Assembly (NCBI RefSeq): GCF_003003795.1
Contig: NZ_PVWK01000061.1
Location: 1-64,000, forward strand
Length of the DNA stretch: 64,000 bases
Origin: Stenomitos frigidus ULC18
GTDB taxonomy: Bacteria > Cyanobacteriota > Cyanobacteriia > Leptolyngbyales > Leptolyngbyaceae
Direction: 5' to 3'
Shown: positions 12,229-12,671 of the stretch, piece after piece
Numbering within the stretch: position 1 is the first letter of the stretch
How the letters are laid out: every line of letters starts with the position of its first letter
Notes under the pieces: generated by a model
Databases searched by the model: none
The model's input: only the letters and a program-made list of their open reading frames with translations
What the model was told of the DNA's origin: nothing
Program-made: the position numbers and the translations under genes

Positions 12229-12270
12229 GATTATTTAGGAGTCCTAATTAATTAGGACTCCTAAATAATC
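12229..12270. promoter_or_regulatory. 42-bp perfect palindrome, likely double operator
   Basis: Bases 12229-12270 equal their own reverse complement, 21 bases per arm with no loop. Inside are two copies of TTAGGA-N-TCCTAA, each itself an inverted repeat, separated by four bases. This is the form of a tandem site for a dimeric winged-helix repressor. It ends 14 bases before the start codon of the thioredoxin-like gene, with a GAGAGGT ribosome site in between. A terminator role for the preceding MFS gene is less likely, because there is no loop or T-run. Confidence 0.7.
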
Positions 12271-12284
12271 TGAGAGGTCAATCA

Positions 12285-12671
12285 ATGAAGACTGCTACGT
12301 TTTATCACGTTGGCTGTACAGTCTGTGTTACGGCTGAACAAGAATTTGTTGGAGCGTTATACCAAATCAATTAGTAAAGGCTACAGATCTTGCCCTCATC
12401 CCCAACCCTTCTCCCAAGGGGAGAAGAGAGCCGGATTCAAAGGCCCTCTCCTGTGTGAGAGGGATTTAGGGTGAGGGCGTATCTGTAGTGTTTATTGCGA
12501 GATTTGGTATTAGACCCGGCTCAATATGCGGTGGAAGTTGTGCATTTAGGAGAAAGCCCAAATCGCATTGCTGAAGCAGAAATCGCTGGGGTTGAGTCTG
12601 TGCCAGCGTTGGTCATTGACGATCAGCCATTCCATATCAACTTTGGCGCGGCGATCGCTGCTTTGAAGTAG
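12285..12671 (+). pseudogene. thioredoxin-like gene interrupted by a MITE
   Basis: The first 25 codons read MKTATFYHVGCTVCVTAEQE... with a CxxC redox motif (Cys11, Cys14). After a 150-base insertion the frame resumes at 12513 with DPAQYAVEVVHLG and continues through GVESVPALVIDDQPFHINFG (cis-Pro motif VPA) to TAG at 12669. Removing the insert and one copy of its TTA target duplication joins ...VGAL to DPAQ in frame, giving a normal 77-residue thioredoxin/glutaredoxin-fold protein. As it stands, translation stops at TAG after 29 codons, so the gene is inactivated. The strong palindrome just upstream indicates that it was tightly regulated. Confidence 0.85.
12360..12509. mobile_element. 150-bp MITE inserted in thioredoxin-like gene
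   Basis: The element begins TACCAAATC and ends GATTTGGTA, and is flanked by direct repeats TTA (12357-12359 and 12510-12512). Inside, CTACAGAT and GCCCTCA near the left pair with TGAGGGC and ATCTGTAG near the right, so most of the element folds into one long hairpin. The core words CCCTCATCCCCAACCCTTCT and AGGGATTTAGGGTGAGGGC are typical of a dispersed repeat common in cyanobacteria. It encodes no protein and must be moved by a transposase in trans; no full transposase for it is in the window. Confidence 0.8.

Follow-up and report, generated by a model that had tools for sequence, protein, structure and literature searches.

The 64,000-nucleotide stretch of the Stenomitos frigidus ULC18 genome analysed here (contig NZ_PVWK01000061.1, positions 1 to 64,000; hereafter the window) contains a gene for a thioredoxin-like protein that is interrupted by a miniature inverted-repeat transposable element (MITE) of 150 bp, with the tips TACCAAATC...GATTTGGTA and a TTA on either side (Table 1). 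The interior of this MITE recurs in many cyanobacteria between several unrelated kinds of ends, two of which are attributed to known families of insertion sequences (ISs), and the origin of this arrangement is the main subject of the following sections.

The interrupted gene and the copies of the MITE

An initial annotation of the window had proposed that a MITE splits the gene and can be removed exactly; the former statement holds, and the latter does so in silico. Specifically, the element has inverted ends and breaks the reading frame, and the in silico removal of its 150 bp together with one TTA yields a protein of 77 amino acids with a CTVC motif, in which ...FVGAL adjoins DPAQYAVEVV.... 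As the annotation had expected of orthologues, all six named homologues aligned with the repaired protein read across the MITE site without an insert, namely those of a Leptolyngbya (61% identity), a Nitrospinaceae (68%) and a Vampirovibrionales (60%) metagenome-assembled genome, of two Flavobacteria (55%), and of Calothrix NIES-3974 (48%); the same is true of the homologue in G006 (64%), the sole match among six other genomes of the genus. In the own genome (G000), the repaired protein matches only the two pieces of the window locus. Its score against Thioredoxin_3 (PF13192) is 23.8 bits (E 4.8e-05), below the curated cut-off of 24.8, and the protein is therefore named only thioredoxin-like. 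Loss of function of the host gene through the MITE is most likely, since the remaining 3' open frame starts within the element, at the TTG at 12495, and is devoid of the CxxC motif.

Table 1. Positions of the MITE, its parts and the interrupted gene in the window
Feature	Position	Strand	Basis
Thioredoxin-like gene, 5' part: 25 codons that include GCTVC, with the left TTA at the end	12285..12359	+	
Target duplication, left copy, TTA	12357..12359	.	
MITE, 150 bp, IS630-type ends (type A)	12360..12509	+	
Left terminal inverted repeat TACCAAATC...CTACAGAT, 29 bp	12360..12388	+	
Shared core, 90% identity over 90 columns to the by-eye consensus of cyanobacterial copies	12392..12478	-	
Second putative triplex-motif unit CTTCTCCCC..GGGAGAAGGG..TTGGGGATGAGGG	12393..12426	-	pattern; excerpt of PMC4666352
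Putative triplex-motif unit CCCTCTCC..GAGAGGG..TTTAGGGTGAGGG, similar to type A in Holder et al.	12444..12477	+	pattern; excerpt of PMC4666352
Right terminal inverted repeat, 29 bp	12481..12509	-	
Target duplication, right copy, TTA	12510..12512	.	
3' part of the thioredoxin-like gene	12513..12671	+	

The arms of the MITE are 77% complementary across 30 nt and enclose no transposase gene, and the fold of the element beats 200 of 200 shuffled sequences (z of -6.0 as DNA and -7.4 as RNA); a search of the window against Rfam gave no match at the gathering score. With the 150-bp MITE as the BLAST query, the own genome (6.98 Mb in 167 contigs) returns 19 matches, including seven full 150-bp copies, i.e. 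that of the window and six others at 96-99% identity, so that the other copies with the same ends that the annotation had anticipated do exist. It had also called the insertion recent, which is plausible because the 150-bp copies are this similar and the flanking codons are intact. In total, ten copies are complete: the seven of 150 bp (contigs C12, C33, C89, C76, C147, C126, and C50) and three longer ones, of 171 bp (C94), 181 bp (C6), and 348 bp (C36, split); one partial copy lies close to a contig end. The copy at C36 is split by a repeat of about 190 bp (L017, about 1599-1787) that has the inverted ends GTGTACACACAAGT..ACTTGTGTGTACAC and is flanked on both sides by CCTGTGGGAG, and that may represent another MITE inserted into this one.

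Lastly, a perfect 42-bp palindrome (12229-12270), composed of two 21-nt arms containing TTTAGGAGTCCTAATT, lies 14 bp upstream of the start codon of the thioredoxin-like gene, and a similar TTAGGAATCCTAA is present upstream of the relative in locus L062; the palindrome is perhaps a candidate repressor site.

The probable partner insertion sequence and its target

A pattern search for terminal inverted repeats (TIRs) in seven genomes of the genus found elements of about 1.1 kb that share the terminal design of the MITE, namely one of 1142 bp in G005 (contig C93; L144 273-1414) flanked by TTA on both sides, and a degenerate one of 1099 bp in G002 flanked by TAA on both sides. The C-terminal part of the transposase matches the IS630 model NF033545 at 125 bits (cut-off 100) and DDE_3 (PF13358) at 62 bits, while its N-terminal part reaches 69 bits, below the cut-off; judged by these profile matches, the partner transposase is a member of the IS630 family. 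In the G005 element, it is encoded by two overlapping frames around a run of seven A (A7), which suggests programmed frameshifting. Relatives of the transposase occur in 37 of the 97 genomes searched, and 19 of the 30 loci returned have end pairs alike at 20 or more of 29 positions; TNA is present on both sides of all 19, and it is the same TNA in 12 of them.

The TACCAATTC-type TIRs of the own genome lie mostly near contig ends, and the IS bounded by them is therefore probably multicopy and breaks the assembly. All 13 fetched ends of this type, which leave out three sites with three mismatches (C49, C78, and C144), abut TNA, and the best piece of an own IS630 transposase is 90% identical to that of G005 over residues 3-203 of the C-terminal query. 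Two of the 13 ends bound a 607-bp version of the IS630 element (G000:C154; L146 86-692) that has been shortened by internal deletion and has TTA on both sides; it carries transposase sequence and no triplex core and exemplifies the usual path by which a MITE arises. Among the lone TACCAAATC sites of the own genome, none belongs to an autonomous IS with exact tips, and an IS with exact TACCAAATC tips, of 1127 bp and flanked by TGA on both sides, is found in L181, which belongs to another genus. The MITE would be mobilised in trans by the IS630 transposase.

According to PMC2170065, IS630-family elements, including ISY100 of Synechocystis, use a TA target and generate a 2-bp duplication. The annotation had assigned a 3-bp target duplication to the MITE, and the three bases on the left are indeed identical to those on the right in all ten complete own copies (TTA in three, TAA in five, and TGA in two). 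In the sister genome G004, 16 end pairs were recognised at the 21 loci examined; one pair lies at the edge of a contig, and the 3-bp flanks are identical in 11 of the 15 others, which could be measured. When 31 MITEs with this kind of ends (type A) are pooled, the direct repeat is exactly 3 bp in 25 and 2 bp in one, and it exceeds 3 bp in none; both this upper limit and the TNA on either side of all 19 IS630 relatives depart from the 2-bp TA rule of the family.

Three own copies break genes, specifically the thioredoxin-like gene, a TnpB-like gene at C33 (OrfB_IS605, 5.7e-20), and an IS110 transposase gene at C50, and thereby allow the target duplication to be measured precisely in an IS630 group with a target other than TA. 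Removal of 150+3 bp leaves open frames of 88, 417, and 312 residues, respectively, from stop to stop; conversely, with TA retained between the two TNA copies, all three frames are broken, which excludes the TA model. Since the frame is also kept when the element is removed and both TNA copies are retained, it is the alignments, not the frame, that show the duplication: six of six aligned homologues show no gap where the two parts of the IS110 transposase meet, a Pfam domain spans this join, the thioredoxin-like join is consistent with the alignment of relatives, and the TnpB-like join is supported by the frame alone. This IS630 group may have replaced the TA rule of its family by a 3-bp TNA target, a proposal that is made jointly with that of a selfish module (see below) and is as tentative as the latter.

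The core and its different ends

Between its two 29-bp ends, the MITE holds a core of about 88 bp, which is an inverted pair of CCCTCTCCC-GGGAGAGGG-TTAGGGTGAGGG units with a linker near CTTTGAATCCGGCTC. On both strands of the core, a C-rich stem, a G-rich stem, and a second G-rich third strand stand in line, with mismatches, and this pattern identifies the unit as the G/C-rich intrastrand triplex motif described by Holder et al. (2015). That paper (PMC4666352) reports that the motif is very frequent in some cyanobacteria and occurs in inverted pairs, describes its instability, and, for E. coli, reports no association with transposons, phages, or plasmids. In the literature searched for triplex, MITE, cyanobacteria, and transposase together, this was the only paper that surfaced. 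By a pattern search, the window contains no further copy of the core. The 150-bp query is matched in 47 of 58 genomes and, outside the genus, the matches listed comprise its inner part only (query about 20-130). The annotation had claimed to define the exact ends and the duplication of a widespread repeat: the ends and the 3 bp stand, but the widespread part is the core, not the ends. On plasmids, the core is present in 10 records, eight of which cover at least 80% of the query and are all cyanobacterial, the other two being a half-match each in Oscillatoria and Variovorax; none was found in phages.

From the own genome and its relatives, 127 distinct cores were collected, mostly as best BLAST matches to the window core, and 89 of them have recognised ends on both sides: 32 of type A (tips TACCAAATC), 41 of type B (GGGTGCATCCCA), three of type C (ACGCGACGTGC), two of type D (GTTGCTGAAT), four of type E (TATTAACCTGGCA), and seven of type F (GACCTCTTGCA). 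Core-bearing elements with TACCAAATC-type ends were seen only in this genus (G000, G001, G002, and G004); outside it, the core sits between other, unrelated ends. The own genome alone holds four kinds, i.e. type A, type B (C161, with one end damaged and GCTTCAACT on both sides, border set by eye), type C (three copies, two of them with 6-bp repeats), and type D (C64, with GAGATTG on both sides, border set by eye). The unassigned cores include some that by eye are damaged A, B, or F copies, as well as eight copies of G039 (L204-L207, L209, L210, L212, and L213) with long conserved flanks and no obvious inverted repeats, which are perhaps a different carrier of the core.

The type B ends are traced to a 1182-bp element of the ISKra4 family in G057 (268 bits), of which two copies were examined, with 9- and 8-bp repeats, and at least three more places show the same spacing; 23 of 40 type B MITEs have a repeat of at least 8 bp, against 1.2% with permuted flanks. 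Partner ISs are thus identified for two end types, IS630 (3 bp) and ISKra4 (8-9 bp). The search for a type C partner in the own genome returned three matches, all of them known short copies, and no transposase was recognised at four loci with long type F pairs. MITEs are usually viewed as shrunken copies of one IS. The interior described here is common to elements whose ends and duplications are not the same (3 bp or 8-9 bp, and 6 bp or TA for the less common end types), so that each kind must depend on a different transposase.

That the MITE is nothing but an internal-deletion derivative of one IS630, with a GC-rich middle left over and without links to other repeats, is a reading into which its ends and TNA duplications fit, being those of the IS630 relatives, and the own genome does contain the 607-bp deletion derivative. 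The latter, however, has transposase sequence inside, unlike the MITE, and the interior of the MITE matches cores between unrelated ends in other genera, so that this reading is already contradicted and very improbable.

Searches by ends alone avoid the selection of cores and were followed for the first 30 loci each for types F and D. Type F ends in G009 (30 of 60 sites) gave 23 distinct short pairs, 21 of them with the core and, in the authors' own count, 15 of these 21 with TA on both sides, which may be a target preference rather than a duplication. Type D ends in G000, G034, and G009 gave 14 short pairs; a core match is present in 12 of them (of only 35-40 bp in two), and 8-bp repeats flank four of the 14. 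Lastly, type A ends in G004 form about 23 TIR pairs, and all 20 that were fetched contain the core. The core-less type F pair members L337 and L349, of 78 bp, share the terminal repeats and have a different interior. They bear on the idea that the core itself is mobile and inserts into short TIR pairs, for which the many end contexts and the cores without recognised ends could speak: these core-free elements differ in their whole interior, not by a clean insertion, and such mobility is unlikely.

Selection for triplexes or terminator hairpins in MITEs could also have produced similar cores by convergence. Of two E. coli MG1655 inverted pairs examined, one shares with the cyanobacterial core the outward arrangement of its third strands, with units 59 bp apart, while those of the other point inward. 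The close spacing and the CTTTGAATCCGGCTC-like linker common to types B, E, and F and to the type A element of the window go beyond the needs of a hairpin and make convergence improbable, although types C and D and some of the type A cores have a different linker form.

The core tree comprises 89 cores over 95 columns and has many unresolved forks. On it, the end type changes 11 times, against a minimum of five; its well-supported branches force at least four changes for type A and at least three for type B, and a single clade is rejected both for A (p = 0.029) and for B cores (p = 0.0002). The type A MITEs of G004 include cores adjoining types C and D, and the type A cores of G001 fall among the type B cores of G001 and G006. 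Shuffled end labels need 39.7 changes on average, and the end type is hence also strongly clustered. The cores seem mostly to amplify with their own ends and to switch partners now and then, which points to their repeated packaging or exchange. The window element is very probably an IS630-ended MITE with a triplex-pair core, in which the core would be an interchangeable module packaged repeatedly between the minimal ends of different ISs. The type F ends that enclose a different interior in L337 and L349 agree with such a module.

The position of the G001 cores among those of G001 and G006 is also what local exchange would give, and the linker and length common to the cores agree with a history in which one ancestral capture was followed by core swaps among MITE families through homologous recombination or gene conversion. 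Full exchange needs homology on both sides of the core, but none is seen between A and B ends outside it, and the few columns of the tree cannot separate exchange from repeated capture; this history is a real possibility, if a doubtful one.

Several points weigh against the repeated packaging of the core between IS ends. The cores were mostly picked as best matches, so their proportions are no census, and 38 of the 127 have no recognised ends. The tree stands on 95 columns, the p of 0.029 for type A is modest, and the pattern expected of repeated capture could also be produced by gene conversion among cores resident in one genome. Five of the 31 type A MITEs are without a direct repeat, and 36% of permuted type A flanks also agree at 3 bp because T and A are fixed in TNA. 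With respect to the partner, the assembly of the own genome contains no complete IS630 copy, the own IS ends match the two ends of the MITE at only 18-21 of 29 bases, an IS with exact TACCAAATC tips is seen solely in another genus, and the TNA differs between sides in seven of the 19 IS630 relatives. Moreover, triplex formation by the core is predicted from the motif pattern, and transposition is deduced from sequence comparison.

If the core is repeatedly packaged, its packaging could proceed as follows. The ends of an IS would come to flank a triplex motif, and fold-back or fork stalling at the motif would promote deletions that leave nothing of the IS but its terminal repeats, after which the fold-back core would bring the ends together and favour copying. 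The trimming of the IS against the motif is proposed because types A and B consist of terminal repeat, core, and terminal repeat, with little else, and it is plausible that fork stalling or fold-back causes it, which would agree with the instability reported by Holder et al. The triplex pair may accordingly be pictured as a selfish or selected module that propagates by picking up minimal ends, again and again, from resident ISs (IS630, ISKra4, and others); together with the change to a TNA target, this is offered tentatively and at somewhat less than an even chance. If true, the enigmatic bacterial triplex repeats gain a vehicle.

Comparison with known systems

The partner IS resembles IS630, as represented by ISY100 of Synechocystis in PMC2170065, in its IS630 transposase with DDE_3, its length of about 1.1 kb, and its inverted terminal repeats. 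In contrast, ISY100 and the IS630 family duplicate TA according to the same source (PMC2170065), while the partner IS group shows a 3-bp TNA. A further difference from ISY100 is that the partner transposase is encoded by two frames that overlap around an A7 run. By the title of Zhou et al. 2008, Nezha is reportedly an active MITE in cyanobacteria, and it is likened to the MITE of the window by that title only, not by sequence.

Compared with the triplex motif (TM/TMECO) as described in PMC4666352, both half-cores match its CCCTCTCCC..GGGAGAGGG..TTAGGGTGAGGG unit, and inverted pairs are present in both systems. In E. coli, the motif is reportedly not linked to transposons, phages, or plasmids (PMC4666352), whereas here it forms the core of MITEs. 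Moreover, the cyanobacterial units stand close together with a common linker, while in E. coli one pair has the same orientation with a 59-bp gap and one the opposite orientation. Lastly, the type B core-bearing MITEs share the ends and the 8-9 bp duplications of ISKra4, the transposase and ends of which are unrelated to those of the window element, and yet they carry the same core.
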